From: Sipunculus nudus
Taxonomy: Eukaryota; Annelida; Sipuncula; Golfingiida; Sipunculidae
Length of the DNA: 64,000 bases
Assembly: GCA_026874595.1 (NCBI GenBank)
Contig: CM049313.1
Coordinates: 64,918,159 to 64,982,158, forward strand
Direction of reading: 5' to 3'
Position numbers and translations under genes: made by a program. Positions 19,901 through 62,855 of this stretch are shown here, in pieces (positions within the stretch are counted from its first letter, which is position 1; every line of letters starts with the position of its first letter). The notes beneath the pieces are model-generated. The model did not search any database, was not told the DNA's origin, and saw only the letters and a list, made by a program, of their open reading frames with translations.

Positions 19901-20858
19901 CAGCTGTGGAAGTCGGGTTTTGTCATCTTAATTTTCTTTATTTTTAAGCGATTTTGTTATTTATTTTTTAAATTAAAAATTACGGCTGGCCAGTTGTCAA
20001 CAAGGCTCAAATTGTAACCTATAAATATTTTACTTAACCTAAAATTAGGCCACTGTGACCTGTATATTGTAAGGTTGCAATTGTTTTTGTGTTTACAGCG
20101 CTTTGAAATTTTAACATTACCAACTTTTTAAGTCAGCTGAGCGTCATGACATATGGGTCACTTGTTTCTTTTTAATCTGCAATATAACAAGGAGTATAAA
20201 CAGTCGGTATAAACTTTAAATTGTATGATCGTATCTTTCGTTGAATATCAAAGATTCACTCTATATTGTGGTTTCCTTTGGAATATACGTAATACTATTT
20301 AAAAACATCATTATCAGCAAACCTCAACGTATTTGGAGAGGAATTCAAATTCACCTTTATCGAAAATTGAAAAATTAAAAAAGGTTAGTATGTTTAATTA
20401 ATTGAAAAATACAGTCAGACCTTTTCTTATACAGAAGTACAGATAGCCGTTCAGTCTGTTGGAATATGTGGTTCTGACGTGCATTTCTGGACCAAGGGAA
20501 ACATTGGAGATTTTGTTGTTAAGGCGCCAATGGTCCTTGGCCATGAGTCAAGTGGAACTGTGACTAAGCTGGGTCAAGGTGTCACACACCTCAGAGTGGG
20601 TCAGTATATAATCATGTGATCTTTTTTTACGTTAATACATTTACATGTTAATGAGGTTAAATTTAGTACAGTCTTATTACATAGAACCGTTCAACAATTT
20701 TTGTCAAAATTAGGTCTGGGTATCGCCTATAAATTTCATATTGCAGTATATTGCATTTATGGTTGCGTATTGCGATACGTATTTTCATTGTATTCAGTTG
20801 ATAGGAAAAGTGTGTTTTCTGTATTATGCATACATAAATAATTCATTATTATTATTAC

Positions 20859-23800: not shown

Positions 23801-24328
23801 GTTATCCATACCTAAGATGATCTCTAAATATTTTTGCCCAGTTGTAGTATTTTAAGATGAAAAGATCGAGATATTTAAATTGAGAAAGCTCTAGTTCGAA
23901 AATATTGTATGGTTGATTTAATCATACAGTGGTCTACTTATTTTAGTTTGTCGAAAAATATACTTTATTATGACAATTTCTCTCAATTTTCAGATTACCG
24001 GACCACGTGACCCATGAGGAGGGGGCCTTGTTAGAGCCGTTGTCAGTTGCTGTCCATGCGTGCCGCCGTGCGGGAGTGACTGTTGGTCAGAAAGTGTTCA
24101 TATGTGGAGCCGGCCCAGTCGGTCTGGTTTTTATGCTGACAGCTAAGGCCATGGGGGCTGCTGAAGTGGTTTTAACTGGTAGGTTGTATTTTTTTCATTC
24201 TTTGGATAGAATTCCCTTGTACTTTATCTACCTTAACAAAGTAAAGACTTACAACAAGTATGATGAGTTTATGTAAATCTTAACAATCCTAAAATTTCAT
24301 GTAGTGCATATTCGATAGAGAGATATCC

Positions 24329-24385
<57 letters not shown>

Positions 24386-27300
24386 AGCTTACCTATTCAT
24401 CTACGTAAATGTATTGCAATACTCACCTTTACCATCAAAATTCAATTTCAAATCACTGACGGGATCACAGTCGGAAAGCAGAAGCAACACACAATCTAAG
24501 ACAATCGGGTTCTCCGCACCTTGGCAAAGAAAAACGAGTATGCCGGGAGTGCTTGTAAACTTTATGCGTAACTCTGACATGCAGAATATTTGGAGATTTT
24601 TAGTGGAGTAATACGGAAATAATCGAACTGCTTTTCGGTATTAAGCGGGTGTATTAATATTGTCGTTAAAAATATATCCCCCTGTTGGAGGAGACATTTC
24701 GGAGACATCTCTGCGTTCAACAGGCCGATCTTAACCCTCGTCTACGGTCTCCACAAGATTTCTTTCTAAGAGTACGAAGGCGACATCTGGTGGACACTGT
24801 GGCAATTATAATATTTAAAAAAAAAAAAAAAACAACAAAAAAAAACAGCAACAACAAAAAAACTGATTCAATGGTACCGGCAGTGACATTCAGAAGTAAA
24901 GGTGTGTTTTAAAGTTCCTGCAGAACATATTTATTTTCGTATTTTTATCCCAGCTGACCATAGGACTATTGAGCTATAGCGATCACCCTTTGTCCGTCGT
25001 CTGTCCTCCGTCCGGCTGTCCCGTCTTTCCATTAACAAGGCACAATTCGTAACCATTTGACCTAGAAACCTCTAACTTGACATCAAAGAATGTCCTTGGG
25101 CAAATCTCCTAATATACCAAAAAAAAGGTCACTGTGAAATATATTGTGCGAGTTTCGCATGTTTTTGTGTGTTTTAGCACTTAAGAAAAAAATCAGTCTT
25201 GAGCTGCAAAACTAAGATTTTACACTCAATCCAAAAACTAAAACTTCGGGCATCAACTGTACATATAACATTGTTATCATGCGAAAATGGAAGAAAATCG
25301 ACCGCAAGTTTTTCAGAACGTTTGCGGACACAATTGAAAAATGTCTAGTATTTTCTAGTTGATGTAAGGTGATTGATACTTTAGATAAAATAACATACAT
25401 CAATAATGATTGCATGAATCTTTCTGAAAACCTGCAAGCTTATTGATCATAGATATCCCTTAAGCTGTGGCAGACTAGTGGCGCCATCTACCTTTTCTTT
25501 ATTTTTACGCCTTTTTGTATAATCAGAAATTACGGCTGGTCAGATGTTAGCAAGGCACAAATCGTAACTGCTCGACTTAGATACTTTTTACTTAAACTAT
25601 AGATAGGTCCTTGAGCAATCTCCTTGCATACCAAACAGTAGGTCACTGTGGCCTATTTTTGTGAGTTATGGCTGTTTCTATGAAAGATGCGGAAGGTCTC
25701 ACACACAGGGTGATCATTTAATTCAAAGTGTCCTCTTTGGACTGGTCAGGTTTGCTAAAGTGTTATTACATTTCCGGTTAATTTTGTTTTACATTAACAG
25801 TTAGGGAACTTTGTTATATTATCGGGTAATTTCGTATAACGTAATCGGTGAACATGTTGTTATCTTATCGGTTGATTTTGTTTTACATTATTGGTTAATG
25901 TTACATTATCAATAGTTTTTTATTACGTTATCGGTTGGTAATCAGCTATCATTTGATTTGTAATAACGTTGGTGTTACATTATCAGTTAATTTATTATTA
26001 CATTATTGGTTTATGTTACATTAAAAGGTGACTATTATATTATCAGTTGTAACAGATGTGATCGTCTCATTTATACGATACTAGCTTCTCCTTCCCGTTC
26101 ACTATTTTCAATTTGAAGACCAGTTTTAAGTATAATCCAAAATACAACAGATGGTGCTTAAATATAACGAGTCTAGATGAGAAGCAGTAGACGAGACAGA
26201 AACTATTTCAAACATATTTATACTTACAACATATTTGTTTAACAGAATCAAACTGTCTGTTGATATTCTTTGAAGAATTGAATAATTTTGAATATCTGAC
26301 TTTTTGAGTCTCAGAAAATGTCAAGATACAGCCTTAGACCCTGATGCAAGGTAACAACTGCTTTCAGCCTTGATACACAATATGTAGCGACAGGTGGCGC
26401 TGAGATAGCTATTCCGAAATATATTTTGAGAAATCACTGGAATTATGGAGAAATAAGAAAAATGATGGACACACTTTGTGTAATTCCCAACCGTAACACG
26501 CAGATCTTTATAAAATTACCCATCCATATATATATTAGAAGGATGGTGTGGTGTTATATCCAACATTTCCGATGAGACTCAATGCAATCATTTCATCATG
26601 ACAAACGGCGGTTAAAAAGCTTATCTTTTTTATCAAGTTCACCTTTTAACAAGAGGGCTTGTAGTACAGAAGATATGTCGATAATTGTTTTCCTTTTTAG
26701 AGAAAGGCCGAGCGTTGCGAGGCTGGCGGCAACGTTGGCCCAGAATTAATTATAGGGTCACCACTGGGCTTAAACAAGTGACCGCATGGCGTCATAATTA
26801 AAAATTTATGAGAATATGTATATGCTTGAACATTTTTTTGTAAAGATGAAAATTTCAGATTTCAGAAAATTAGGAAGAAACGATTTTCCGGAAACCGGCG
26901 TTCGGAAAAACGGCATTCTACTTACTGTTTTACCTGCAGACATATCAGAGCACCGGTTAAATGTGGCCAAGCGGATGGGAGGGGATCACACCATTCTTGT
27001 GACGGACAAGAGCGCCAAGGAGACTGCTAACAAAGTGTCTGAGGCGCTGCGTGGCCAGCCTGACGTCACCATCGAGTGTAGCGGCGCCGAGAGCAGCATT
27101 CAAACAGGCATTTATGTAAGTTCCCCTTACGTCATCACTGCCTTCCGGAGAGATACTGTAGCTGACTTCATATTGGCGGGGTTTAATTTCGCGGTTTTCA
27201 TTTTACCAGTTTTTCGCGTATGTTCTATTTTCGCGGTCTCATATTATACACATTATGTGAATTAATTGTATCAAATATTATGTGCATAAAATCTGATTAA

Positions 27301-39290: not shown

Positions 39291-39297
39291 CTTTCAC

Positions 39298-39760
39298 CTG
39301 TTTGTGTGTGATCCTGTCTTGCAGCCACACGATCTTTGAAAATTTCCTTTTTGGAATTCTTTTGGTAGTTCCATCTTCCTGGCTATGGGAGGAGAGCCGT
39401 GCATGCCCTTCTTGAGAGCGTCATAAAAAGCGCGGAGGTCGGGGCTCGGGCTGCGTGAACGGTCATCTGCCTCAGGCGAACGAGCGTCCTTTTTAGAGAG
39501 TCGGCCATCTTGTCGCCTCAAATCTGGCGCTGATCCCCCATACGAACCTGGCGGCACCGACAAAAGTGACCGCGGGGATGGACTTCTCCCGCGGTCAGAT
39601 AGATCAACAGATGATCCGTTCTTTGAACATGGTGAAAATCCTCTTGAGGGTCTATAATCAGCCGATCTGGGTCTGCTGGAATCGCTATATGCGTTCAAAT
39701 GATTTGGAGTCCCTGACTTTTGCCTTGCATTGCTCTTATGTGAGCCAATACTTGTGTCAA
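39298..39760 (-). CDS. Probable exon of a Ser/Pro/Arg-rich protein
   Basis: An open frame of about 154 codons is bordered by a plausible acceptor (ccatatag) and a plausible donor (CAG|gtgaaag). The frame itself extends from 39803 to a stop at 39294. It encodes low-complexity sequence with repeated RSPSP motifs (GRSPSPRSL, DRSRSPSPDLRAFYDALKKG) and ends in a Lys-rich stretch. Base composition is far more GC-rich and codon-like than the neighbourhood. Such Ser-Arg-Pro segments occur in cytoskeletal scaffold and signalling proteins. I cannot name the family and found no neighbouring exon. It is on the same strand as the pseudoprotease gene but probably belongs to another gene. Confidence 0.5.
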
Positions 39761-39803
39761 CTATATGGATATCGGGGCATGCCATTGCAAAAGCCACGCT
39801 CAC

Positions 39804-41114
39804 CTTGTGTCACTCTTGGAAAATGAGTCGATTAAATATTGTTTTTCTCAGCTTTCACTCTTTTGTCACCTAGTATATATGCCCGGTGTGATCTATTGCA
39901 AGCTCGGGGCACTGGTTAACAAGACGCCTGCAAACGTGATGGTTTCAGTCCTGTGTAACTCACACTTCTAGCGGCATTCTTACCGCACACGTAGCTCAAT
40001 CCATTGTTCACTTTCATATAACAGCCAGTCTTAAGAATTGGCTTGGTCTTATATCTGATTGGTATCAGTATAATTTGTTGCACAGATGATAAATACTGCT
40101 AGCTGTGATATATCATATGTGGTCGCAACTGCCCGGGTCGTAGGCTCGTCTGAGTGGTTACTACTAAAGTACATATACCTCATACCAGTTTTTACACGAC
40201 GTACCCATTAAACTCGACTTACGGCTTACGAGCACACCTGCGGGCGTGTCATTTTTTGTGGTTTACCTATATATGTCAATAGAAAATATACGCCACTTAT
40301 AATGTACTTAGCAAGTTATTTGCTCAAGGTATATAACATGTTGCAACTGGATCATACCCTAAGTCACTGTGTTGTATTTATACGTGTGTGTATTTATGAA
40401 TTTAAGATACATGACGTGGTACAGACGGAGTGCCCGTACATTACTAATCTATATTTCCACGGGGCTATATTAATTGTATTTGAAACATGCCTTTTTTTAA
40501 ATAAAACTAAAGGGTGCCAACATATGACCAGTGCATGAATTCAATTAACAACCAAAGGGATGCCAAAGTGTACAGCTTTCTACGTTCGATGAAAAAGTAC
40601 ACTTGGTAATGCAATTTTTGACCTCGGAAAAACAGAAGTATATCAAGTATTTTAAATTTAGTAAAACATCTGATATTTAGTGATTTATATTAATATCATA
40701 AAAGAATTCCGTTTTCTTATGCACCGCTGGCGTTTATTTTGAAACCCCCTCCCCGTATCAAAACTTGCTCTTTTTTATTTTCAGTGGATATTTAACGATC
40801 CTTAGCTCCAACCTCTCCGGCTTTTCTGAATAAAACCAAGAAATAAAATTATAAAGTTTCCTTTTGTTATGTTGTGTAATTACCTGTTTTGCCAAGCAAT
40901 TCTATTATTATGTAGTCAACTGATCATACGTTTATCGAATAACAAGATTAGGTACAAAAAATCGCCCGCCGGCTCTGATTGCTGATGACAGTGCCTGAGA
41001 AGCCAACCATTTTTTCTGTTACATATGTTCACTTAGACGGAGAATAAACCACTTCATATTTTGTCTATTATATACTGTTAGCTATATACTACTAAAATTG
41101 TCTAAAATAACTTG

Positions 41115-45657: not shown

Positions 45658-46494
45658 TCACCCAAAGGGAGGTCCGCCTCCAGGAGCTCCATTACCAAAA
45701 GGCCCACCTGGTCCTGGTCCGTTTCCGTTTGGGCTCGAAAAAGGAGGTCCATTTCCAAAAGGAGGTCCATTACCACCTGGGCCCGAAAAAGGAGGTCCAT
45801 TACCACCTGGGCCCGAAAAAGGAGGTCCATTACCACCTGGGCCCGAAAAAGGAGGTCCATTACCACCTGGACCCGAAAAAGGAGGTCCATTACCACCTGG
45901 GCCCGAAAAAGGAGGTCCATTACCCCCTGGGCTCGAAAAAGGAGGTCCATTACCACCTGGTCCCGCAAAAGGAGGCCCATTACCACCTGGTCCGTTGCCA
46001 CCTGGTGCCGGGAAAGTAGGTCCTTTGCCACCTGGGCCCGCAAAAGGAGGTCCATTGCCACCTGGTCCCGCAAAAGGAGGTCCATTACCACCTGGTCCCG
46101 CAAAAGGAGGTCCATTGCCACCTGGTCCCGCAAAAGGAGGTCCGTTTCCATTTGGTCCCGGAAAAGGAGGTCCCGAACCAAATGGTTCTTCATCTGCCTC
46201 TTCATTTTCCAAAACGAAGCCTCCTTCGGGTATGTCCCAGTTCCCTGGAAGGTTTCCGGGAATCTCTGGCTGATTGGTCTCTTCCGGCTCCGGCATCGTG
46301 TCAATGAGATAGTTGCACATGTAACGAACTTCGTAGTCGTGACAGCGGCATCCCATTTGCTGTCTGGCGTGATTACACCGGAAACCCCACGACCCCATTT
46401 CCACGTATTGTTCTGATGGGCAGTAGGCGGGGTTGGGCGCTGCTGTTTTTACATTATGCTCTGTGCACAGAGGCTGTTCTCCGCCACAAGCAAC
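45658..46494 (-). CDS. Pseudoprotease gene exon 7 (Cys-rich module, acidic linker, repeats)
   Basis: It encodes VACGGEQPLCTEHNVKTAAP..., then RCNHARQQMGCRCHDYEVRY and MC, an acidic linker (PEPEETNQPEIPGNLPGNWD and VLENEEADEEPF), then the GNGPPF decapeptides, ending GAPGGGPPFG and TGA at 45658. Acceptor tatacag. Other frames stay open through the repeats only because of their 30-bp periodicity. Confidence 0.9.
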   Translation of the reverse strand, partial: VACGGEQPLCTEHNVKTAAPNPAYCPSEQYVEMGSWGFRCNHARQQMGCRCHDYEVRYMCNYLIDTMPEPEETNQPEIPGNLPGNWDIPEGGFVLENEEADEEPFGSGPPFPGPNGNGPPFAGPGGNGPPFAGPGGNGPPFAGPGGNGPPFAGPGGKGPTFPAPGGNGPGGNGPPFAGPGGNGPPFSSPGGNGPPFSGPGGNGPPFSGPGGNGPPFSGPGGNGPPFSGPGGNGPPFSGPGGNGPPFGNGPPFSSPNGNGPGPGGPFGNGAPGGGPPFG

Positions 46495-49400
46495 CTGTAT
46501 AATTACACGAAGAAGTGATTACGGTAATAATACAATGTAACGGTATTTACGGCGGTTCTGTCTGCTAAGGTGGTACAATTTCAACACAGAAATGTGACAA
46601 TGTAGTTTACCGTTAATCTATAATAGATTATTACACCTTCGCCAGATTGTGAGGAATCTCGTTAACTTTTGGTTACTTAGTTATCTGATTTGTCTGTTAG
46701 TGTCTTTACTAGTACACTATAAACTGTGTTAGATGTAAAACGGTGGACGGCAGTTAATTCCCTTGGAACAAATCTTTAAATTTTGGAGAAAAACTACATT
46801 ACCATAATATGTTTATAATATAAATTTAAAAAATCTCTATCATTATGAGTGTCAAGAAAATCATTTATCTTATTTATACAAAGATTTATAAAAAAAGGAT
46901 CATTTATTCGGTGTACTAAGGTGTTGTGAAGAAACTATATATTTATGTGCTTAAGATATTATTAAACGGTCATTTATATAGTTTTTTAAGGTTTGTTGTG
47001 CTTGGTGCATAAATGACCTTGGGGGCGGGACCATTATGTAATAAATAGGGCTGTTTAGTATGATAAGTATGTTTTCCAGCCAGCAAGCTGTATTTACATG
47101 TGTAGCGGGGACACAAGGTCAAAGGTTAAACTGGACCAGACCAGTACTGTCTATGCTGTTATAGAGAGTTCAGACAATGTGTAAAGCATATGACCTTGAA
47201 GTGGCTGTAACATCATGAGTGTAGTCAGTACTTGTCAACAATCCAACAGAGAAAGAAGGGTCCATTTTAGTGGAACGTTATAATAACATAGAGTTACCAG
47301 TAGCAGCAAGTACTCATGAGATCAAAATGAAATACTGAAACTTTTCACGTTTTCAAATACCTTGGGATATTAAGAACTCTATATAAGTGGGATTTTGTAT
47401 TTGTGTTTAAGAGACTGAGAACTGCCTGGTCGACATAAAACAAAAAAAGCATAAGGATCACATGTAATAAACGACCTGCATGGCAAGCCTTAAGAATTCA
47501 GTGAACAATCAAATTGACCGCAAATCTATTGATATAAGAACAGAAGTGTGATGCGCCTGTAAACTAAAAAATAACTGTTCGTGTGTGTGTTGGACCTATA
47601 GAAGAGACAAAACCAGAAGGAAGCCATGAATGAATCATCAAGGACTGTGTGGTACAATTAACTATAATATATGCATTGCTTGAACACTTACAAATCTACA
47701 GATCGTAGGTAGAAAGCTATTCTATCTTGAATAGTTGATAAATGGTATAGGTTATTTTGACCTCTGTGTCCCATATGAATTATGCTAGGTTAGGTATCAA
47801 TGTGGAATGAATTTTGTTATATAAATATTTGTTTTGTACGTTGGCTTTGTTTGTTGTTTGTAATCCTTTAATGCTTTGTAATCCTTTAATGTAAGACATC
47901 GTCGCCTTAAATAATGAATCAAAATCATTTTATATATACTCAAATCGTGACAATGAGATAGGGCATTCCTATTTCGGCCGAGGAATAAAACCTAACATTG
48001 GTAAAAGGGGCCCCTTTTGCACTAGAGCTGACTTTACCAAAGCTTGATTAGAACCTTGGCGGAGTTGTTGGTCTCTGACTGCTCTCAAATAATGACAAAT
48101 ATATGACAAATTACCTGCCCTTTCCACCACTCTTCACAGTCACACTGGTCACCTGGTGTCGGGGTATAGGTACTGCGGGCGGTCGACCAAAAACCTATTT
48201 AAAGAAACAATCTAATCACTTTTGGGTATTACTTTTAGAAAAATTGTACATATATCTTTGTAAAGAACAACACAAAGCTAGAATGAGAAAATTTCTTGTT
48301 CCTTTCTTTTGTCAATATGTGGCATTTCACATTTTTAGATTTTTTACTAGATCCTCGGCTGGGATTTGAACCCACGATCTCCCGTTTTTTTAGTTGCGCT
48401 TAACTTCTAGACCACAGAAGCTGCATGATGGATATTTCTGTATTGTTGGTACCCTTAAAGACAGATATGTCTGCGATGGAGATTAGCAGAAGTGACTGGT
48501 GAATATGTTCCAATCATGACCCCCTCAGTATCAATATTATTTTACACTGAAGCATTCAAACATGATAGTTGGTTTTATGCACGCTAGGGTTTCAATATTA
48601 AAATATATGCGAAAGGGAACTTATCAGGATAATTAAATGGTCGTGAATAAGCGCCCTATAAAAAACATATCTTGGGCATTACCCGTGCATGTAACGCCGA
48701 TAGAAATACGATATCAACGATATCAATATTTCATGTCACCTGTCAATGAACAATCAGAATCACAATTCGTTCGATATTTCCTTGGCTTCTTTATTGTTAA
48801 CAATTTGCTGATAAACCAAAAAAAGACTGTCTCGCTATTATTCTGTACGCAATGAAGCAACTCATAATCTTATATACCCTGCGTAGGTTTATGTACGGTG
48901 AAATTGCGAAAACCTTAATGAAACACTGAAAAAGGGAAATTCGAGAAAAAATCCGTATATACCGGTGCACATGCTGCTAGTCCGGGGTTAATGAAACACG
49001 TCAGGCCATTTGATGCTGATCAGGTGCGGCTTTAGAAGGGGCTCAATGTAAGCGACATTCGTCTTCGACACAAAAATTACTAGTAATGAACGTTTGAAAG
49101 TTGGAAAAAAATATATTGTTAGGGGCCAAAATATTTTTGCAACACAATATCTGTCAATGACAAATGCACTTGACATGGAAATATTGCTTTAACATTATTC
49201 AAAAACCATTACTTCGAAATCAACTAATAAAAGAGGCATTTGCAAAATAAACAAGTGATGTTGACTGTAGTCTTTGTTCGAGACTTGACAAAAGTCGACT
49301 CGGGTCAAGACGCGAGTCCATATTTCAAGGACTCGAGTTAATTAACCAAGGCTTGGACTCGACAGTCTTTGACATTGTAGATCAAGACTCGAGAAAAAAG

Positions 49401-52400
49401 GCTAGATTGCTCCTGAGGCTAGTAGAAGATAAACTTGGTCACCAAAGGTCTGAAGTTGAATTTGGAAAACATCCATAAAGATTACCAATGTAAACGTTTG
49501 ACAGAAATTTGCAAACACAATTAAATATGTACCAACGGACCTATTTGATTATTTTCTAGACTTGTCTATCCGGAATTACCTCCAGTGTGTCAATATTTTA
49601 TGGACCGCTAAGTATATGTGATTTAATTTTTTTTACTTTGACTTGGTTTCTTTCTGATTCAAGACTCTAAGAAGGTTGGACTTGAACAAAAACTTCAAGG
49701 ATTTACTAGCCATGTGGAATTACCGCCAGTATGACCATACTTTACGGACCTCTAAGTATATGTGATTAAAGTTTCTTTAAGAGTCGGACTCTAAGAAAGT
49801 TGGACTTGGAACTACACTTCAAGAATTTACTAGCTATGTGGAATTAACTCCAGTATGTCCATACTTTACAAAGCTCGAAGTATATGAGATTGAACAATAA
49901 AAAAATTAAGCGTAAACTAACATAAAAAATGGTTATCTCAATTTGATGTAAAAAAATACAAATTTCTACTTGGACTTGGTTTCTTAAACAGTCGGACTCG
50001 AAGAAGGTTGGACTTAGATTCGAACTTAAATGATTTGACTAGCCTCGACTCGGACTTGCACTCGGACTCTTTAAATGTGCACTCGACTACATCACTGACA
50101 TAAACAATGAAAACGTGGCTGGGTCTGCAATGTTTAATACTTCGTGGTCTCACCTGGCAATGCACAGCCAACTTCTTGGTAACAGTGATACACTGACGCT
50201 ATCGCCAGTTGGTTGAAGATTCCAAAGTTGTAACATGTCGGGCATTTTGCTGCGATCAAACCTACAAGGTAGATGCGATCTTCGGAGGCGACCAAAACAG
50301 GGGAGCCGTATACGAACGCTTCCTTCCCGGATGGAATGTTCCAGAACACACGAGAACAGATATGTCCGTGATAAGGATCCCACGAAGGCCTACATGAAGT
50401 GTGCTCCAGTACCTTGTGGGTGATGGTAACCTTCTCCGTGGGACCCGTCCCCATGACACTCATCGCCAGGCCGCAGTACTTGTAGAGGTACGTAGGCCCG
50501 TGTCCGGACAATCTCAGCATCCCGAAATCCGGAATTCGCTTGATCATCTTGAGGAGAATGTCAAGAAAACTTGGAGGAACAGAAGGTTTGGAAGAGCTGG
50601 AACTAGAGCTGGTGCTTTGAAACAATGTGCTCGACACGGTCAAGACCACAAGGTCGCAGACATCAGGATGACGAACTACTCTTTTAATAGATGCCGTCTT
50701 CTTTTCTATGAGGTCGCATCCTAACGTTTCAACCCTGTTGATGAGAAAAAGAAGAAAATCATTTCGTTATTTTATTGTAATATTTCGATATAATGACATT
50801 AAATATGAAGGATTTATGTGATATATTCTGTCCTAAATAATAAAGAACATGAGAAGAAATACACTGGACCACTTGTACAAATCAGATGTTCGTTCGACCA
50901 TCGAGTATGGAAATCTGATTTTATGAGCATAACTAACAGTAAAAAAACTCGAAAATGTCCAATGCCAAGCTGCTAAGCTAGTCACAGATGCACTTCGAGC
51001 AACCAGTTATGTAAACTTTCACCTGAACATGTCTGGCATACTTAAGAAAGCCGACGAACAAAATCAAAGTTATGTTTATCCTATAAGTTATTACATTGCC
51101 TATGCCTAGCTTTCATGTCACGATAAATGTGCTCGTCAGTCTCAAATGTTACTCCTATGAACCTAAGAAACACAAGTGAGATGCGCAAGTCTCGTGCAAG
51201 AACGGAGAAATACAAATCATTCATTTCATCTTGCACAGTTCTATGGAAATCATTAGACTAATCATTAAAACAAGCAGTTCTTTAAATGCTTTAAAATTTT
51301 CTGTGAATAGATACCTTTGCTTAGCATCCGATCCCACATTATATTACAGCTATAGAAAACGACAGCAGAATATTTAGATTTCAAGACTTAGATTCGTCAT
51401 AGCTGTCTTAAGGATCATTTGTACACACATGGTCTGTCTGAAAGTGACCGAAATCCACAATGTCGAATGGTTAAAACATTTGTTTTTTTTAATGTGTCCG
51501 AACTACGAAGTCGCACGACAAATGCAATGGAGTAATTACAAAACTTTAGCACTGATATCCTTACTTTATTCACGTCTAATTGGGACAGACGACAAACTTA
51601 TAAATTAATGACCGTCTTAATACATAGGTCATTGAATTTAAGCTTAACAGTTATCCAATGTATACTTAATCATGCATTCGCATATCTTTAATCAATAAGA
51701 CGCTTCTGTGCTGACCGGTAAACTGAGTAAATACAACTGAAGGATACCCGACTTATCATTAATATTTAGATTCGTTTGAACAGATACTGACAGTTTTCAG
51801 GTATTTTTGTAATTATTCATGATTTCATATAAGGTTAAGGTGATATAATATCTTAATTTCGTGAAACGTCTACCCAGGTAATATATAAATCATTGATCAA
51901 TGTTTTATTTGCATTACAAATGTATTAATCAGGCTTTGCTGAGTGTTCTTTCTATCTTATCCTGTATAATATTGATAGATACAGTATCACGCATAATCGA
52001 TAAAAGATTTTCTCGGTTTTCATATTTCAACATATCGATATTAAATGCTTTGCACCGTTTGCTTATTAGACAGAAAAAATTTAAAAATATTGTAATATAT
52101 TGTTATAACGGATTTATGTTATATATGTTATATGCACTATTCGCTTTAATGTTAGACTTGTAAAAAAGTATTTCTGTATTGTATGTTCGGAGAGTACTTA
52201 TAGTATTTAGCATTTAAGCGCAATTTGTAAAATAAAAAAAGGAATACATATGTTTAAACCAACCATTTTTGGTTTAACTTGTTCCTGAATACTCGTGCAA
52301 TTCAAACTGGGAATCGGAGCACCAAACGAATAACCAAACTTTGGCAATACACGCCCATACACTAATACAGGGTTTACGCTTTTACAGACATCGCTGTACA

Positions 52401-55129
52401 TAGAAGTACGAATTAAGTTATTGTTACTTAAAAGTGCTACTTTTAAGTAATTTTACATCACTTGTCCCATGTCTTAATTATTGACGCCATCTGGTATTCA
52501 TTGATTGAAACAATGGAGCTACACATGACGACATATCAGAATTATTCAGGAGACATTGATCCAATCATGTCCCTCGTTTACGGTCCGTCTACGCGGTGGG
52601 GAAACTTTTAGGTCAACCGTCTGGCGACGGGAGACGTAATTTAGAATCTGACCGATCAAATAAAGGCTTGTAACCTTGTTGGTTTCCTGTACATGTGTTC
52701 TTGTTGATAATACTTGTGAAGAGTTTTGTCAGTTCTGTCAACTGTTTAGTATGGTAATTATGGACTTGATTGGCCGTTATGGTTTTGGTCCCATCACATG
52801 TGCGTCTGTTTTAACTCCATGATGCAGCAGGCCAGGAGACCACCTGCATGAAGCAAGGTCTCTACTCAACTGAGTTTGCGACCGGGATCCCGTTAGAAGG
52901 TCGACATTGGATATGAGTGTGATTCTATAATCTGAGACACTAGCAGATATGGAAAGAGAATTTACCATTCAATCTAGGTTGTAGAAATATATACATTTGC
53001 ATGTCCTTTCGTATCTACATAACTGCAAGTTTTACATCAAGTGGGCAGGACCTTCTACCAAGCTTTAACAATGAATACCCGCACTCGCGCACGCATGGGT
53101 GCACTCACACACGTACACTCACACACACACATTTTCTTGCAAAATAAGTTGTTTTTTTTTTATTTTTATTTATCTTAAATCGAGGGGCCAAAACTTAGAA
53201 GCTTTAAAACTTGTGGAGCTCACTGCAAAGATTGATTATCACCCAGTGTGGATATGTAGTCTCGGACTACAGTTCTCATAATTTTTGTTGTGTTAATTGT
53301 GGCATATTTAGAGCTGTAAAACCTAAGGACTGGCAGTATAAATGTTTCGGCTTATTAATTAAAACATTTTAAATTTGGACCAACCTTTTGGTCATTGGGT
53401 GATTTGAAATTTAATCTGCTGTCTTGTTTTGTATTATCTAGGGAGAGATACGGGTATTTGACTCTGTTTGGGGCTGCAACGTTAGCCCAAAGCTTACTCA
53501 TTACACTTACTCGTATCTGTCCGTGTCGTCATCAACCACGCACGTGCTCAGCGTAACAAGGGTGGCCTTTCCCATCAAAATCCCCATACACTTGTGCACC
53601 CCGTCGACCTTGACCTTGGCAATGAGGCACTTAATATCCAGCCCGTCGGGGTTGAGCAATTTGTTGTACAATTCATTCTTGACATTCTGGCAAGTGTCGG
53701 CTGTATGCCCTGTCGTGTAATATACCCAGAAATTATTTTCAATTAAAATTTGCTTTCATTTATTATTTTATAGCATAGTGCTGATCATTAGAAATAAAAG
53801 TGATTTAAACTTACGTACAACTTATAAATTCCCAAATAGCGGGAAAGTAAGAGAAAAATTACACAATAAAGACACGAAACAGAACAGATGTTTTTCATAA
53901 CAGGGCCCTGTTTAGAGACATTTTTTTTCAAAGGAAAAGGTTGCTTCCTACAGACTTCTCATATATAGTTTTGATAAGTATATACATAACTGATGAAAAA
54001 AAAATAGTTTAATGTTTTTTTTTTACGTTTGACGACCGTACATAATAATAGGTCAATAATAATAGTGATGATAATAATAATAATAATTATTATCATCATC
54101 ATCCTTATCATCAACATCTTTTCGGTATATATTTATATTGGGTGGCTACTAAGGAAAACGTTTTGTTCATTAAAACATAGATAATATACTTATATATATA
54201 ATATGACACATATAATATAATATAATATAATATAATAATATATAATATAATAATATATAATAGAATATAATAGAATATAATATAATATATCGGTGAAAAT
54301 CATAACTAGTATAGATCAGCGTCGTTAATCCTTTTTTGTAAAATGTGGCGGCGGCACTGCGTCTCCTCCGTCTGTTACCACACATTGGTGCTGGCGCCAT
54401 CTGAGGAGAAGTCCATCTATTTACTTAACGACCCGCCATAAAGGAGGGCATCATATCTCTCAGACTCGCAGACAGTCCACGTTCAGACGGCAGTTTTCTA
54501 AGCTGGTCACATAAATACACACAAGACTTATTGACTAAATCATCTTTCCATGGAATGAGCCTTGTCGGTACTTTTTCTAAACGACTATCCGCCCTATGTA
54601 TTGTATGTATTCCACCCAGGCCAAGGCCAGATGATTGAATCATGCATACTGATATATTCACATGATATTGCAGCACATGTTCAGAATAAGGCTGTCTGTT
54701 GAATATAAGAAATTATACTTGTGTAGTTACACCAAGCCATTCTCTATATCAACGCAGAAAAAAATGAGTTTATCGTTGCCACCGGCATCCCTCTTTGTCT
54801 TACTGACAATCTTGATGCCAGGTTTCATAAACGAATTATGTAAATTTTATAAATGCCTTTCCGTTCGTAGTTGATACGTTTTATCGCATTTTTATTTAAT
54901 GACTGCTAATCGCATTTACATTTAAATTAGTCGAAGCAATTATAAATGCTTGTACATGTATTTGAACCCATACATCGCCTGACGACACCTCGGTCGAGAG
55001 ACCACATCAAAACACCGATCACTTTGTACGGGTCCCGATTGTTTGTCGCCCTTAATACAAAACTCGCTTACACGACCACCTCGCAAATGCGACCCCTTTA
55101 TCGAGGTCCAGATGCTGGTCGTAATTACG

Positions 55130-55190
<61 letters not shown>

Positions 55191-55794
55191 TACAAAGTCA
55201 GGTTACAAACTTTTTATATGAGTGATCGATGATTTTAGTTTTAATACTTATTGCCATAAAAGAGTTCTTTTTGAAAAGTGGTCAACAGCACATTGAAATT
55301 TTCACTGCAATGACCGCGCCCTCATCCTCAAATATGAGTTGTATAAAGACTGCTGTTTGTTGAACGAGATATCTGCTTTAATGGGTGCTATAATTGTTAT
55401 TATTGTTAGTCTTCGGAACACGCTCTAGCATTTATGGTTCATCTTATATAAAATGAATTATTAGATGAATTGGAAGATGTTCTAACATATTTTAACAGCC
55501 TGCAAACTTAAGATCGCAACCTGTGACAACTGGAGATCTGTTATAAGGTAAGGACTTTGGACTTGACCTACCGGAAATTAAAAGTAGCGATTAAGAAACT
55601 TTGTTTTACTGAAGATTATTGATAATCTTTTGATAAATTCCATTATTTACAAATGGATTAAAACTGATGAAGTGTTCACAGTCTGCATATTTGACAATGA
55701 TATATATATGGGTGTGAGCTCACAAAGTCGGTACTCGCGCTATGTCCAGCATAATGTACGCAGAGCATTCGTGAACATACGATATTTATGTGTC

Positions 55795-55843
<49 letters not shown>

Positions 55844-58800
55844 TTTATTTAAACAAACACAAAGAAATTTCGCCTTTGATGCACCTCTCTCAGCTATTTT
55901 AAACTGCGAATTACTGCCTCCAGCGTTGATTTATGTGCATATTGATGTAAGTCATATGCTGCCCGCATCCGGAGTTGAGGAAAATAAAAGGATAAATCCC
56001 AATGGGAAAACTGTTTCTCTAATTAAGAGGAAAAGACGAATTGCGTCCCCAAAAAAGGAGTCATCGTTACAGCACAGCTATTCTTTTTCTTTCTCTTTGG
56101 GAATCAGGCTGCACAATTTTGTACTTCTATGTGGTCTTCACTTTTGTGTAATGTATGCGGTAATTTGTGTAGTTTGCAAATATATGGCTCTTGGTACTGG
56201 AAAATTTAGATATAAAACCTATAAAATATTAAATTACATCCATATTTTAAAAGGACTTACTTGGACAATTCACCTGGCGATTGTCACATTTCCTGACCTG
56301 GAAATTACTTCCGGTACAGTTACTTCCGCCCTGGCATGTTCTTTTTCTCATAGAGGAACCGACTCCAGCACAGGTGACGGTGCACGGGCTCCAGTCTCCG
56401 TATTCAGACCATGTCCCTGCAGCTGTACATGGTGTAAACTCAGGTCATGTAATGTATTAGATTATAAAATATATAACATAATATGTTAAACACTATGAGG
56501 AAATATAACTGTGTGTGTACATATATAAATAAATATATATAATATTACAAGTAAATAATAATACAATAATACAAGTTCAGTGTTTATAAATAACATATGC
56601 ACATACATGCCTTTCCGTAAACAAAAAAGAATACCAGTGACAATATAGAACGTTTCTCATCATATAAGCCTTTTTTAACCCCCGAAGACGCGGCTTTGAC
56701 CTTTTTCGGCGAACTATTATCTGGGCTAATATGGCAGCGCCCTTTATACCTCCAAGGTTGGAATACGAATTCGGCCTGGGAGTTCCAAGTAGGCAAGAGC
56801 ATGTAAAGCAGCGCCATGTTTTTTATTTGCAAAACTGTGCTCCGTCTGATTTGGCGCCTTGTGGCGCTGCTGGGCGTGTTTTTACTATGATCGTCGGATA
56901 TATTACCCCAAACATGCTTTCAAAATGCTAATACAAACGAATGGAACAACATATGCTTTGCTGAATCGGTTAATTTTATTTATTTTTTGGGGGGTAGGGG
57001 GAGGGGTGGAGTATTCTGATAAAAGTGCCAGATATTATCTTTATTTAATATATGTCAGAAACCAGAATGGGCCTCTTTATTAAAATTATTCAACCTAGTG
57101 AGAGAAGGGCATAATTCGCCAAGGGGGAGGTTGGTGGTGGGGGGGGGGGGGGGGTTAGCACCGGGTTTCACAGGTGATTTACACCTTCTGCCGTGTGTAA
57201 TGTGTAATGAAAATTATGTCACTCATTGTTGGTTAAATCAACCTATATCTCTAGAAGAGGTAACACTTGTAGTAATAACTGAAACGCAAAAAGTCGAAAC
57301 GTATGGATAATATTCCAAAGATTAATCAAATGTAGAAACGTCATATCTTTTTTTTTCAAATTAATTACGTTTTGCTTGAATAATGGAGTAATACCATATG
57401 ACTGGAAAGAGTCCGTCAAAGTCCCAGTGCCTAAAGCAAGTACAGACTGCATGGAGCCTTTAAATCATACAGGGACTAGTCTGTTGTCATGTATCGGGGA
57501 AGGTCTTGTGTTAGGTAATAGAGAGGAGAACTGTGAATTATTGTGATGCTTTCTCAATGATCGCAGATGAACAAAATGGTTTTCGAAGTGGTCGGTCTTG
57601 TATTGATCATATAATTGTATTAAGTAGTATGATAAGAAATCAGTTAGCAAACGGCGAGGAAACGTTTGTTGCCATGGCGGACATGGAAAAGGCTTTCGAC
57701 TGGATAAATAGAAATTTACTTTTATATCGTTTAATAGAGTGCAATATTGATGGCAAGATCTATAATGCTTATAAAGTTATTTATACGGACACAAAAACCT
57801 ATGATCGTATAAATAAATATATGAAAACTAAATGGTTCGGTGTGTCTAGTTGAGTAAGACAAGGAGACCCTCTGTCATCTACATTGATCAATATATTTGT
57901 TAATTCCTTGGTAGATCACCTCAAATTGTTGGATATTGGCATATAAAACAATAGCGAAACCGCGTGCATGTTATTATACGCGGAGGACATAGTACTCTTT
58001 GCTGATTCAGAAGGAGATTTATAGACCTTAATTTCTCCTTTGTAATCACTGGTACAAACATAACAAAGTAAAAAAAGTAATTCATTTTAGAAACCGAAAG
58101 CAAGGATTAACACAATTTAAATTCATGCTTTATTGTCAGGAATTAGGGATAGTTAGTAATTATAAGTATATGGGACTTTATTTAAATGAGCATATGGCTT
58201 ATTATGAGAGTTCAGGAAAAAAACTGATCGAATCCTGTCCGAGGGCTTTAGGCGCAAAAATATCAAAATTCAAGAAAATAAAAATATAACGTATAGTATT
58301 TTTAAAAGTTGTACCATTCAGATGTAGCTCCGGTCATCCATCGACCATGCTTCTGAAATTAGGGGATTCGCCAAAGCGCCTGCATGTGACAGAATTCAGC
58401 AGAGAGCAAACAGATTTTTTCTGGGGTAACACAAATTTTGTACTATTCCGGCTTAATATGGTGAGACGGGATGGTTTGATTGAAGGTGCAGACGACTTGA
58501 TTATAGGATTTCGATTATTATCAAAACACACAAAACTTTGGTCTTCGGAGATTGATCAATTCCTTTGATAATATGAACCTACTTAATCTTTACACTGATG
58601 TTAAACCTTGTCCATTAACACAAGCAAAGGAGAATATAAAAGAACATTTTGACAGTAATTGGTTGATTAATTGTGACAATATGCCAAAGTTACGAACGTA
58701 TGTGAAGTTAAAATCTAAAGTGAGTACTGAAGGATACTTAACTATAATTTAACCACCCTTGGCCCAACTATAGAAGAATATTACCTTTAAAAACAGAAAC

Positions 58801-61205
58801 TGGACTTTTTAAGAACATAAGGGATTCAGAGACAGGGCGGTACAGAAAATGAAAATAGAAGAAAGACTATGTGAACTTTGTGAAAGTAATAGAGTAGAGG
58901 ATGAGGTTCATTTTATCTGTCAATACTCAGAAAGGAGGAAAGAGTTGTATGGCGCTATAAACGACAGGAATCAAGAATTTATTTGCCTGGATGATGAAGA
59001 TTAATTCATATACCTAATTGTAAATGAATTTGAAAGAATGGCTGGTTATATAAGTGACATATGGAACATTTGCACCAACACATTGTTTAGATAAAGAAGA
59101 CATGTTCGGTCTAATATGATAGTTTTCTTTTATATATGGTATTTCAACCTGCATTTTTTAACTTGTTAATTAATTTGTGACATATAAGTCCAGGAAGGCT
59201 GGGTGCACATTAGAATATGTATGTATATAGATAGGATGTTAAAAATATGATGTTCAATGCAAGCATCACTAGCGGGAAAGTTCGGTCAGCTTTTATGTCA
59301 TCCCGTAAAACACCCTTTAAAGAGTGTTCTGCAATCAGAACAAGACAAATTATCCCAGGAATCACACTTTGGTGAGCTTATTCCCTGGGCCACAAAGTCA
59401 CGTTGGACGAGCCCCCTTTTTATTTGGAAAGACAAATTGCTCAAGAAAATATCGGGCCGATCCGTGATTCGAACCCATGTCGGTGGCGCACATGTCCGGC
59501 GTTCGAACCGCTTCGCTAGAAAAGTAAGCTTCACAAGCGAGAAAGTTCGGTCCGCTTTTATGTCACCCCGTAACACAGGTCACCAAGGACGTTTTTGGTC
59601 TGAATTAGGTGCCCACTTGTGGAAACAGCGCGCACCATTGTAGCGTATTGCACCGTTTTTTATAAATCGTTTGGGTAATCTACCAAATTTAGTACTACTT
59701 TACTTGTGTTATGAACAACCTTAATACTTACCCAGTTCTATCTTAATGCTGTTAAAGGTGTTTTTTTCTTATATCTGAGGTGTATCAAATAAAAATAATC
59801 TTGAATCATTATAAAAATAAGCCAAAGTGCGCCGATCCCACGATGCACAGACAGGTTGTCTGTCTTGGTTATAACCACGTGTTTATAACAGGTTTGTGGC
59901 TGTCAAAAAGGCCGATCGAACCTCAAACACGTCCCTCAAAGACATCTAGCGACAGTCATAAGAACCAGAGATTTGCATATGAGAAAATATTTTAATGCTT
60001 CATATGCTGACACTAAGAAAAGCTGTAGAGCGCAATCCACCTCCTTTACTCAGCGGTCACATGATTTTTCTGTTTGTCAACGTGGGCGCGTACACCATGT
60101 TTATCACGTCAGAGTCGTCAGTCACAGAGGCGTTATAAGAATTTTTTTTTTAGCAGGAAATATTACGGATCGTTAATGTGTTCCTAAAGTAAGCAAGAAA
60201 TCATATATACTATATACAAAAAAGGCGGGTGATTATAGCTGACTTTTAATCAGGAACGGGTTTGATAGGATAATGATTTGAATGAAAATTGTGACATGAC
60301 ATAATCAACCAGCGAGCATCAAGAATTTTTGGTGAAGGATGGGTTAATCGGGGGGGGGGGGGGGGGGCTGAGGGGTGATTTCTCACAGTAAGGGGTGGTT
60401 TACCCCTCTGACCTCCACCCCTGTCAACGTCCTGGACAAATATGCAAAGGGAAAATTGACATAATATGGTCGAATAATTATTCAAGGGCACTGACACTAT
60501 TATTACATCTCTTATGTGCTATATCCGCAGCTGAAATTCTAATCAAGGATTATTTTCATTGTGATGGGCTTCACATTTATCAACATAACCTAGACAGTAA
60601 TTTTTTGTCCCGGCGCTGTGTTAATTACCCAGACAACATGTGACTGAAAAAGTAAAACTAACCTTCGTATCCAGTGATCGTTTCGAAAATTATGAGAGTT
60701 GTCAGTACAATGGCATTACAACCTAGTTTCTGCAATAAAAAAGAGAGAACACAACATTAATTTGATATATCTGCGACAAGAATAATAATTAAATTATATG
60801 GTAGACATGTTAAATTTGCGTGAAATCTTGTGCGTAATTGAATGAGTGAACCCTCGAGAATATTAATGATAAACAATAAAAAACAATAAACATTTGTTTG
60901 AAACGAGTGTCCTCTTGATTTGATATGATATTATGCTGTGATATGCTGTTATAGGAAAACAACGAATAACATATATAGCTAATTGTAGGATGGTTACATG
61001 GTCAAACAAATGTATAAGTTCTTATTAATTATAGAATGCACATATTGTATGATTTACGCCATAAATTGCGTACATTCAATGACACCAGCCATAGAATATA
61101 CAAATAGACTTACTACACGCGTGACTTTGTTCTTCCTGTAATAAAGCGAATTGCGAGTTCAGTGCTGAAATATTGTTTGACATTACTCACATCTATCTTT
61201 TGCAT
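45658..61205 (-). CDS. Secreted TSP1 / S1 pseudoprotease / Cys-rich / GNGPPF-repeat protein (7 exons, complete)
   Basis: The coding exons are 61205-61191, 60729-60663, 56422-56261, 53709-53511, 50734-50154, 48194-48115 and 46494-45658. All junctions are GT-AG, phases match at every join, and the total is 1941 nt: 646 residues plus TGA. Layout by residue: 1-25 signal peptide (MQKIDKLGCNAIVLTTLIIF...); about 28-81 a thrombospondin type-1 repeat (WSEYGDWSPCTVTC); about 82-341 a trypsin-fold S1 domain; 342-368 linker (CDCEEWWKGQ); 369-428 Cys-rich module ending CHDYEVRYMC like the WxxW domain of mucins and CILP; about 436-475 acidic Pro/Glu linker; about 476-646 decapeptides GNGPPF[A/S]GPG. The S1 domain keeps fold cysteines (CMGILM...STC; TSC...HIC) and an Asp at the D102 site (CDLVVL), but AAHC reads LSTC and GDSGGP reads YGSP, so it should be catalytically dead. 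Role is inferred only: an extracellular matrix, mucus, shell or adhesive protein. Confidence 0.88.
45730..46180 (-). repeat. Coding 30-bp minisatellite (GNGPPFxGPG)
   Basis: About 14 near-identical 30-bp units with a few shortened or changed ones (GKGPTFPAPG; GNGPG). Units of the distal block carry Ser and those of the proximal block carry Ala, so at least two expansion episodes are visible. Confidence 0.95.
48115..48194 (-). CDS. Pseudoprotease gene exon 6 (linker)
   Basis: This 80-nt exon encodes FWSTARSTYTPTPGDQCDCE then EWWKGQ. It is supported by exact phase joins on both sides (G + GT at entry, phase 0 at exit), an acceptor (aaatag) and a donor (gtaatt). The short length makes it the least certain internal exon, but without it the two neighbours would not stay in frame. 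Confidence 0.75.
48352..48425 (-). repeat. tRNA-derived SINE-like sequence
   Basis: The reverse complement contains tggtctagaagttaagcg (A-box-like) and gggttcaaatccc (B box) about 35 bases apart. The acceptor stem and anticodon loop do not fold convincingly, so it is a SINE head or tRNA pseudogene, in an intron of the pseudoprotease gene. Confidence 0.6.
49570..50090 (+). repeat. Degenerate tandem repeat with GGACTC/GACTCGAG motifs
   Basis: Three or more diverged units carry tgtggaattacc-gccagtatg, ctaagtatatgtgatt and gactctaagaaggttggact. A GACTCGAG-rich lead-in starts near 49290. Non-coding, within the intron between exons 5 and 6. Confidence 0.7.
50154..50734 (-). CDS. Pseudoprotease gene exon 5 (bulk of S1 domain)
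   Basis: This 581-nt exon encodes the Asp102-like segment IKRVVRHPDVCDLVVL, a poly-Ser insert (seven Ser), a GHGPT segment in the place of the family GWGxT, the Cys168-Cys182 pair (HTSCRPSWDPYHGHIC), and EAFVYGSPVLVASEDRIYLV, which aligns to GDSGGPLV...LVGI without the catalytic Ser. It ends in QLAIASVYHCYQEVGCALP. Acceptor atcaacag, donor gtgaga. Confidence 0.88.
50870..51720 (+). pseudogene. LINE relic (C-terminal part of reverse transcriptase ORF)
   Basis: Scattered frames read LYKSDVRSTIEYGNLIL, then AAKLVTDALRATSYVN, and later SCLKDHLYTHGLSESDRNPQ and C. These resemble the region after the reverse-transcriptase core of jockey/CR1-like LINEs (LEYGDVIW; ARIVTG; SPxCxC). Many stops and shifts: long dead. 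It lies in an intron of the opposite-strand pseudoprotease gene. Confidence 0.6.
53511..53709 (-). CDS. Pseudoprotease gene exon 4 (N-lobe of S1 domain)
   Basis: It encodes HTADTCQNVKNELYNKLLNP, DGLDIKCLIAKVKVDGVHKC and MGILMGKATLVTLSTCVVDD. It matches the trypsin N-terminal barrel. The Cys42-Cys58 pair is kept, but the catalytic His position in AAHC is Thr (LSTC). Acceptor acgacag, donor gtaagt, ends in phase 2. Confidence 0.85.
54180..54285. repeat. (TATAA)n-type microsatellite
   Basis: An imperfect run of ataat/atagaa units in intron 3 of the pseudoprotease gene. Confidence 0.8.
55131..55846. repeat. Two (TA)n arrays
   Basis: TA arrays at about 55131-55186 and 55797-55846 in intron 3 of the pseudoprotease gene. 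The long open frame that starts inside the second array (55788-56489) runs antisense over the TSP1 exon and is not a gene. Confidence 0.9.
56261..56422 (-). CDS. Pseudoprotease gene exon 3 (TSP type-1 repeat)
   Basis: It encodes AAGTWSEYGDWSPCTVTCAG, VGSSMRKRTCQGGSNCTGSN and FQVRKCDNRQVNCP. It has the paired tryptophans, the CTVTC cysteines and the RKRTC arginine ladder of thrombospondin type-1 repeats, with six cysteines. Two acceptors lie six bases apart (tacag|CTGCAG|GG) and both keep the frame. Donor gtaagt. Confidence 0.93.
57137..57154. repeat. Poly-G run
   Basis: 16 G at about 57139-57154. A second run of 18 G lies at 60350-60367. Both are in intron 2 of the pseudoprotease gene and read as poly-C in its transcript. 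Confidence 0.9.
57225..59095 (+). pseudogene. LINE reverse transcriptase relic
   Basis: Segments in several frames read LNQPISLEEVTLVV, NNGVIPYDWKESVKVPVPKA, then IADEQNGFRSGRSCIDHI, VAMADMEKAFDWINR, VRQGDPLSSTL and LLYAEDIVLFADSE. These are the ordered blocks of a non-LTR reverse transcriptase: finger, QNGFR block, palm Asp block, RQGDPLS and the YADD box, here YAED. A C-terminal segment at 58840-59095 has ERLCELCESNRVEDEVHF. Stop codons and frameshifts are numerous, and the catalytic YADD is altered. It is inserted in intron 2 of the opposite-strand gene. Confidence 0.85.
59265..59590 (-). repeat. SINE-like element with tRNA-type boxes
   Basis: On the minus strand, ctagcgaagcggttcga and gggttcgaatcacgg resemble A and B boxes. 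A roughly 45-bp segment (agcgggaaagttcggtc...ccgtaa) occurs at 59275 and again at 59541 as a direct repeat around it. Confidence 0.55.
60663..60729 (-). CDS. Pseudoprotease gene exon 2 (signal peptide core)
   Basis: It encodes KLGCNAIVLTTLIIFETITG then YE. Acceptor tattgcag, donor gttagt, ends in phase 1. The likely cleavage is after ETITG. Confidence 0.82.
61191..61205 (-). CDS. Pseudoprotease gene exon 1 (start)
   Basis: It encodes MQKID and ends in phase 0 at the donor gtgagt. It supplies the basic n-region of a signal peptide whose hydrophobic core is on the next exon. The 5' untranslated region continues upstream. No clear TATA box was found. Confidence 0.7.
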
Positions 61206-62559: not shown

Positions 62560-62855
62560 GATCGGATATTGGGTCTGACCCATCTTAAGTTCGGTTATTG
62601 GGTCTGACCCATCTTAAGTTCGGTTATTGGGTCTGACCCATCTTCAGTTCGGTTATTGGGTCTGACCCATCTTAAAGTTCGGTTATTGGGTCTGACCCAT
62701 CTTAAGTTCGGTTATTTGGTCTGACCCATCTTATGTTCGGTTATTGGGTCTAACCCATATTAAGTTCGGTTATTGGGTCTGACCCATCTTAAGTTCGGTT
62801 ATTGGGTCTGACCCATCTTAAGTTCGGTTATTGGGTCAGACGCATCTTAAGATTG
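62560..62855 (+). repeat. 29-bp minisatellite, ten units
   Basis: The unit is gttcggttattgggtctgac followed by ccatcttaa, with rare changes (tttggtc, ctaaccca, cagacgca). Each unit centres on TGGGTCTGACCCA, a palindrome with six-base arms and one central base. Confidence 0.95.

Follow-up and report, generated by a model that had tools for sequence, protein, structure and literature searches.

Gene structure

The window, that is, the whole 64,000-nucleotide stretch of DNA analysed (C8:64918159-64982158), contains on its minus strand a gene of seven exons between positions 45658 and 61205 (Table 1). When rebuilt from the sequence, the exons are bounded by AG acceptors and GT donors with compatible phases (0-0, 0-1, 1-1, 1-2, 2-1, 1-0 and 0-0 for exons 1 to 7), and join into a coding sequence of 1941 nt (15+67+162+199+581+80+837) that specifies 646 amino acids and a stop codon, with no internal stop codon in the joined reading frame. 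The seven-exon, 646-residue model of the original prediction was thus reproduced. The G+C content of the joined coding sequence is 52%, as against 36% for the window, with exons 3-7 at 50-58%, exon 1 at 27% and exon 2 at 37%. An ATTAAA is located 197 nt past the stop codon, and a TATA-like sequence, TATATTTA, can be seen by eye 69 nt upstream of the ATG.

Table 1. Exons and tandem repeat of the window gene, and related loci elsewhere in the genome.
Feature	Position	Strand	Content	Basis
Exon 1, coding part	61191..61205	-	start of coding sequence	ATG, 5 codons; donor GTGAGT
Exon 2	60663..60729	-	hydrophobic, signal-peptide-like core NAIVLTTLIIFETITG	signal peptide judged by eye
Exon 3	56261..56422	-	TSP1 domain, residues about 28-81, six Cys	TSP_1 3.4e-8, 34 bits; C3 exon also 162 nt, phases equal
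Exon 4	53511..53709	-	first part of degenerate S1 domain; Cys42 and Cys58 equivalents, LSTC for AAHC	Pfam Trypsin 18.2 bits, below cut-off 20.6; profiles, alignment
Exon 5	50154..50734	-	remaining degenerate S1 domain; CDLVVL with Asp at the Asp102 position, VYGSP for GDSGGP	profile matches, alignment
Exon 6	48115..48194	-	start of Mucin2_WxxW (FWSTARSTYTPTPGDQCDCEEWW)	Pfam model 1-88 filled in three of four paralogues scanned
Exon 7	45658..46494	-	WxxW remainder (369-430), acidic linker (434-474), Gly/Pro/Asn/Phe tail (475-646), stop	Pfam, composition
30-bp tandem repeat	45757..46173	-	13.4 copies, decapeptide GNGPPF(A/S)GPG	repeat finding, translation
Paralogue	C16:31.90 Mb		TSP1, dead S1, first WxxW exon, last WxxW exon(s) in order	
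Paralogue	C7:36.12 Mb		TSP1, dead S1, first WxxW exon, last WxxW exon(s) in order	
Paralogue	C7:41.69 Mb		TSP1, dead S1, first WxxW exon, last WxxW exon(s) in order; SUEL exons upstream	
Paralogue	C3:28.39 Mb		TSP1, dead S1, WxxW in order; cleanest copy	
Paralogue	C16:27.39 Mb		same core order; only first and last S1 parts read	
Paralogue	C7:36.15 Mb		TSP1 piece, S1 exons, WxxW exons	
Eighth locus	C16:57.64 Mb		first S1 exon and WxxW exon read only	

For exons 3-7, independent backing comes from the C3 paralogue, whose corresponding exons of 162, 196, 542, 86 and 231 nt have identical phases (1-1, 1-2, 2-1, 1-0 and 0-). For the putative exons 1 and 2, the support is limited to splice sites and the hydrophobic stretch, which would provide the 646-residue protein with a secretion signal. 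No convincing first exon could be identified in the 6 kb upstream of each of three paralogues (0, 1 and 4 candidates). This result, together with the fact that exon 1 encodes five residues only and has a short out-of-frame ATG just upstream (14 nt from the start codon, by eye), would suit a decaying pseudogene, or a mis-joined model in which the first exons or the tail are untranslated. Such an explanation is nevertheless improbable, being opposed by the canonical splice sites, by 1941 nt free of internal stops, by the exon phases shared with the C3 paralogue and by the G+C-richness of exons 3-7; the repeat tail, discussed below, adds one argument to each side. The idea that the sequence is an orphan, and hence possibly not a gene, was dropped after paralogues turned up in the genome.

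A family with a common core

A search of the genome (1.43 Gb, 153 contigs) with the window gene returned the gene itself and weak matches to its TSP1 and WxxW domains, and reading of such places revealed the paralogues. TSP1, a dead S1 domain and WxxW are found in that order at seven of the eight loci examined, the window gene included. The C3 copy is 28% identical to the window protein over 402 residues (pairwise E 9e-41), and the S1 domains of the aligned members are 15-44% identical in pairwise comparisons. At C7:36.12, C16:31.90 and C7:41.69, the second part of the S1 domain is split into more exons, with some of the junctions being putative.

In the case of the C7:41.69 copy (C7:41679001-41699000, minus strand), three exons encoding SUEL (galactose/rhamnose-binding) lectin domains are positioned immediately upstream of TSP1, with Pfam scores of 70-77 bits. 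Phase 1, which is also that of TSP1, applies to the acceptors of lectin exons 2 and 3 and to the GTAATA donors of lectin exons 1 and 2, and the SUEL exons may share a transcript with the TSP1-S1-WxxW core. Judged by eye, the second and third of these exons are near-identical, and would thus stem from a recent tandem duplication. A longer N-terminus with upstream lectins was also considered for the window gene and set aside, as the window, extended by about 20 kb, contains no SUEL match; the same interval holds no TSP1 match other than the window gene's own.

Pieces of similar sequence were observed at other places. At C16:5525455-5574595, the minus strand carries, within 50 kb, five WxxW C-terminal exons that are alike (42-44% to the query), and further WxxW exons are present at C16:6.45, C9:20.32, C1:107.68 and C3:29.41 Mb. 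A weak match to the first S1 exon (E 0.027) was found at C16:6436603.

A protease-like domain lacking catalytic residues

The original prediction had read the middle domain as a trypsin fold with LSTC in place of AAHC and YGSP in place of GDSGGP, and these substitutions are borne out by the alignment. LSTC corresponds to residues 135-138, with Thr at the His57 position, and VYGSP to residues 289-293, with Tyr at the Ser195 position. The triad positions His57/Asp102/Ser195 of the window protein thus read T, D, Y, which is not the triad of an active S1 serine protease. Across the six aligned members, the His57 position is occupied by T, Q, A, A, S and A and the Ser195 position by Y, R, V, R, E and I, such that both catalytic residues are absent from all six, while Asp is found at position 102 in the window gene only (one of the six). 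The C16:27.39 locus, with LTVSQC and VVGAAV, is also devoid of His57 and Ser195, and the C16:57.64 locus, of which the first part only was read, has ITIEEC and no His57. In total, His57 is missing at all eight loci read and Ser195 at all seven. The positions of the S1 cysteine pairs Cys42-Cys58 and Cys168-Cys182 are conserved in six of six aligned members. Inspection by eye revealed no activation cleavage site in the window protein, and no clip domain was listed by Pfam at E up to 10 over the whole protein.

The assignment of this domain to the S1 fold is weak when made from the single protein, and appears better founded when shuffle controls and a profile of six family members are used. The Pfam Trypsin model scores 15.9-18.2 bits on the window protein, short of the cut-off of 20.6, with a match confined to the first part of the domain; in a scan at E up to 1 it was listed for one of the six family members. 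The best PDB match of the single protein is factor D at an E-value of 0.39, and the second half of the domain alone has no S1 match in PDB or Pfam. Profiles dominated by vertebrate trypsins gave little: one scored 0.3 bits against the window domain, another 7.8 bits against a maximum of 7.5 in 3000 shuffles (1948 reported), and an hhalign comparison with such a profile returned a probability of 1.7. Single-sequence AlphaFold runs on exon pieces only gave pLDDT values of 32.5 (exon 5 alone) and 40.0, too low to bear on the fold either way.

When a more varied S1 profile was used (13 rows, comprising 4 vertebrate trypsins and 9 S1 loci), the whole domain scored 16.1 bits, against a maximum of 5.7 in 5000 shuffles (3250 with a reported score). 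The two halves of the domain are also recognised separately, the first at 11.9 bits (maximum 7.8 in 5000 shuffles, 4441 with a reported score) and the second at 9.9 bits (maximum 7.0 in 5000 shuffles, 4142 with a reported score); when matched to the wrong half-model, the halves yielded 0.1 bits and no reported score. At the level of the family, a four-member profile scored 32.6 against the S1 profile (maximum 24.2 in 200 column shuffles), and a five-member profile scored 33.2, as compared to a maximum of 23.0 in 150 column shuffles and to 12.6 for the reversed profile, with an hhalign probability of 34. When a six-member profile was compared with all PDB sequences, 57 of the 59 entries listed up to E 10 were S1 proteases or pseudoproteases, the two others being a ketoacyl synthase. 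These 57 matches represent about 19 different proteins, many in several variants, with factors D and B foremost; their E-values lie between 0.02 and 1.7, and the alignment is in most cases confined to roughly the first 50 profile positions. The top match is protein Z (3f1s, 3h5c), which aligns in two separate stretches that are collinear and each weak alone; protein Z, factor D and prostasin lead the matches, with HGF, factor B and C2 among those that follow.

One could argue that the domain is instead an unrelated Cys-containing beta domain that resembles the CxG...AAHC region by chance, a view consistent with the sub-threshold Pfam score, with the lack of any PDB or Pfam match for the second half alone and with an hhalign probability of 34 at best. 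The fact that the whole domain and each of its halves exceed their shuffle controls, that the profile match is collinear (protein Z included) and that 57 of the 59 PDB matches are S1 proteins makes chance resemblance a most unlikely explanation. Thus, the trypsin fold originally proposed falls short of Pfam's cut-off and is upheld by the shuffle controls, the family profile and the PDB matches, and the middle domain very probably has the S1 fold.

Flanking modules and the repeat tail

Upstream of the S1 domain, the TSP1 domain of the original prediction is recovered by Pfam TSP_1 (PF00090) at residues 33-75 with 34 bits and an E-value of 3.4e-8, well over the cut-off of 21.6, and has six cysteines, at residues 41, 45, 57, 63, 73 and 80. 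In four paralogues the same model scores 18.6, 20.5, 26 and 33 bits, two of which are below the cut-off.

Downstream, Mucin2_WxxW (PF13330) reaches 24.8 bits on isolated residues 343-443, with a cut-off of 22.4, matching model positions 31-88 only; in the whole 646-residue protein it scores 19.6 bits, under the cut-off. For three of the four paralogues scanned, the joined exon pair matches the full Pfam model (1-88) at 22.1, 37.3 and 52.4 bits, and in the C3 paralogue the end of the model alone is matched at about 10 bits. Because the paralogue exon pairs fill the whole model, the WxxW module is taken to start in exon 6, at residue 343. The WxxW-like module that had been recognised from the motif CHDYEVRYMC (residues 419-428) is therefore present, although the extent first given to it was too short. 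A Pfam profile check of the 646-residue model, as had been suggested, found TSP_1 and Mucin2_WxxW, with Trypsin below threshold.

The acidic linker and the Pro/Gly/Asn/Phe repeats that were predicted to follow are likewise evident. The linker (residues 434-474) has a net charge of -12, and the tail (residues 475-646, 172 amino acids) consists of 66 Gly, 52 Pro, 18 Asn, 17 Phe, 10 Ser, 7 Ala, 1 Lys and 1 Thr. Among the decapeptide units, differences from the consensus number 17 at codon position 3, 10 at position 1 and 2 at position 2, as counted on 13 of the 16 repeat units (two truncated units and one irregular unit were left out). This concentration at the third codon position argues that the repeat frame is translated, and against the pseudogene or mis-joined model considered above. 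A match of Extensin_1 to the tail (24.7 bits, cut-off 105) was set aside as low complexity.

The tail was also considered as a trait of the whole family, an idea that was dropped when the four paralogue ends read (CPYLIH, CPFIV, CGY and CPYVHI) were found to stop 2 to 5 residues past the last WxxW cysteine. A tail absent from these four paralogues is a point in favour of its being untranslated, the third-position bias notwithstanding. When 113 residues spanning linker and tail were searched against the genome, 66 matches were listed, of which the window locus alone was strong (182 and 61 bits); the next-best tail match in the genome, with 150 of 293 candidates scored, was 42 bits at 39% identity. 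The repeat tail thus appears to be an addition that is seen only in the window gene.

Relation to known proteins

When residues 1-440 were compared with a protein database (about 5.8 billion sequences after clustering at 90%, with NCBI, nr and UniRef eukaryotes among them), 3728 candidates yielded none at E <= 0.001, and for residues 82-440 none of 2571 candidates was retained at E <= 10. A sequence can be found in this way only if it shares five-residue words with the query and has a length of about 355-1130, and relatives with the divergence of the paralogues could escape the search. There was no NCBIfam match, no relative of the WxxW piece in viral contigs or of exon 5 in prokaryote contigs, and no TSP1 + dead S1 + WxxW combination among the papers listed by literature searches. 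Each module is known; within these searches, the tail and the combination as a family built on a dead S1 core appear to be undescribed. The claim of an undescribed combination therefore survives, with the amendment that it is not a single odd architecture, as at least seven genes have the same core.

Individual features are shared with several well-known proteins. For instance, cartilage intermediate layer protein (CILP), an extracellular matrix protein, has one TSP1 and one Mucin2_WxxW domain, in the order WxxW, TSP1 and then Ig and CILP-specific domains, and is not known to have an S1 domain. The module order is thus the reverse of that in the window protein, and no CILP or immunoglobulin-superfamily family reaches its cut-off in the 646 residues (CATSPERB_Ig-like is listed at 11.8 bits, cut-off 27). 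Gel-forming mucins carry Mucin2_WxxW repeats (Pfam PF13330) and so share WxxW with the window protein, which has an S1 domain, and in which no VWD or C8 domain is listed by Pfam. Protein Z is vitamin K-dependent and has an S1 domain that lacks catalysis and works by binding, accompanied by Gla and EGF modules where the window protein has TSP1 and WxxW; both have a dead S1 domain, and they resemble each other only distantly (E 0.02 with the family profile). Arthropod clip-domain serine protease homologues are secreted S1 proteins with a broken catalytic triad, and differ from the window protein, also with a dead S1, in having a clip domain instead of TSP1 and WxxW. Rhamnospondins have a rhamnose-binding lectin domain, and in this respect are comparable to the C7:41.69 paralogue, in which TSP1 is likewise combined with a SUEL-type lectin, and unlike the window gene, which has no lectin domain; to our knowledge, they have no S1 or WxxW domain.

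On the evidence of the published excerpts consulted, the nearest published combination is the cnidarian Ap_Trypsin-like TSR protein, in which two ShK and four TSR domains precede a C-terminal trypsin domain, and which was called a novel combination (Neubauer et al. 2017, PMC5446238). What the two share is a TSP1/TSR that precedes a trypsin-type domain within a single animal protein; the differences lie in the ShK domains and the several TSRs, and the excerpted text mentions neither catalytic loss nor WxxW (PMC5446238). The window protein, by comparison, combines a single TSP1 with WxxW, a repeat tail and an S1 domain that is dead and has diverged greatly. The same excerpts describe eight TSR domains in the rhamnospondins of Hydractinia (PMC5446238), and for three Elysia species the figure legends list CUB, EGF, Ig, Kunitz, LDL, LRR8 and VWA, among others, as partners of TSR, with no trypsin or WxxW (PMC7663992).

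Possible functions

Our preferred reading, to which we assign a probability of about 0.5, is that the locus belongs to a family of secreted pseudoproteases not described before (signal peptide, TSP1, dead S1, WxxW), and that the window copy, with a self-associating tail, acts in cross-linking within mucus, an adhesive or a matrix. Here, the dead S1 domain would most likely be a rigid binding platform, and TSP1 and WxxW would bind glycosaminoglycans, mucins or other proteins of the matrix. The acidic linker, presumably gained by the window copy, is probably cation-binding. The tail would be disordered and almost uncharged, with Phe recurring at intervals of roughly ten residues in a background of Gly, Pro and Asn, and these Phe residues could serve as weak stickers through which the tail self-associates, making the protein a cross-linking component of mucus, adhesive or extracellular matrix. 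Phe residues spaced by ten in Gly/Pro/Asn beside an acidic linker are a composition of self-associating, elastomer-like or coacervating proteins. The balance also tips slightly towards a fast-diverging animal family of modular extracellular scaffolds, in which the TSP1 - dead S1 - WxxW core is invariant and the end modules are swapped (SUEL in front, Phe-sticker tail behind), such that the window copy would be self-associating and the protease fold would act as a structural connector.

Comparable modules are known from such materials. According to excerpts of the respective reports, green mussel foot tissue expresses TSP1-domain proteins that have no assigned role (PMC7971044), the shell proteomes of abalone and crocus clam include proteins with VWA, TSP1 and chitin-binding domains (PMC6003135, PMC8217771), and some SUEL-domain proteins are foot-specific in the mussel Mytilisepta (PMC5549309). 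The last of these would suit a scaffold role for the lectin-bearing copy, though what the mussel foot and shell reports can be taken to indicate is only that such modules occur in such materials.

A role in innate immunity is a tentative alternative that fits almost as well as one in matrix, mucus, shell or adhesive. The dead S1 domain would then serve as a cofactor or decoy of the serine-protease-homologue type, either regulating a protease cascade outside the cell or binding microbes, with TSP1 and WxxW docking on surfaces. The low identity between the S1 domains (15-44%) is as expected of fast-evolving defence genes, and several of the nearest PDB proteins (protein Z, factor D and prostasin, then HGF, factor B and C2 among others) are regulators or cofactors. 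The three SUEL exons just upstream of TSP1 in the C7:41.69 paralogue point in the same direction, as do the rhamnospondins, cnidarian TSR proteins that are proposed, in the excerpts cited above, to bind microbes (PMC5446238). For the window copy itself, however, no SUEL match turned up either in the window or in about 20 kb upstream of it; this copy terminates in a long tail of structural appearance, and has neither a listed clip domain nor an activation cleavage site discernable by eye.

The proteins secreted into mucus, byssus and shell matrix frequently go uncharacterised, their domains being too divergent for Pfam. The present family was visible only by exon joining and paralogue comparison, with His and Ser lost in every aligned copy and the fold apparently kept between two adhesive modules, and it would offer a new case for why animals keep dead proteases. 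It also gives a profile with which other genomes can be searched, and a tail in one copy may amount to a natural experiment on the gain of a repeat tail.

Neighbouring sequence

Several other features are found in the window. Exons of apparently tandemly repeated genes for zinc alcohol dehydrogenase, perhaps sorbitol dehydrogenase, lie on the plus strand at 8907-9119, 20398-20616, 23974-24273 and 26798-27259, with ADH_N at 58.7 bits in the exon at 20398 and ADH_zinc_N at 30.3 bits, just below its cut-off, in that at 26798; by eye, there is hardly any difference between the exon at 8907 and that at 23974. On the minus strand at 39297-39809, some 6 kb past the 3' end of the gene, is an open stretch of 171 codons that is rich in Arg, Ser and Pro (RSPSPR, RSRSPSPD) and has no Pfam match. 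Within intron 2, a reverse transcriptase fragment (RVT_1, 29.7 bits) at 57515-57850 on the plus strand, opposite to that of the gene, indicates a retroelement. Finally, a 29-bp tandem repeat at 62562-62851, 1.4 kb upstream of the gene start, is present in 10 copies with 94% matches and includes the near-palindrome TGGGTCTGACCCA.
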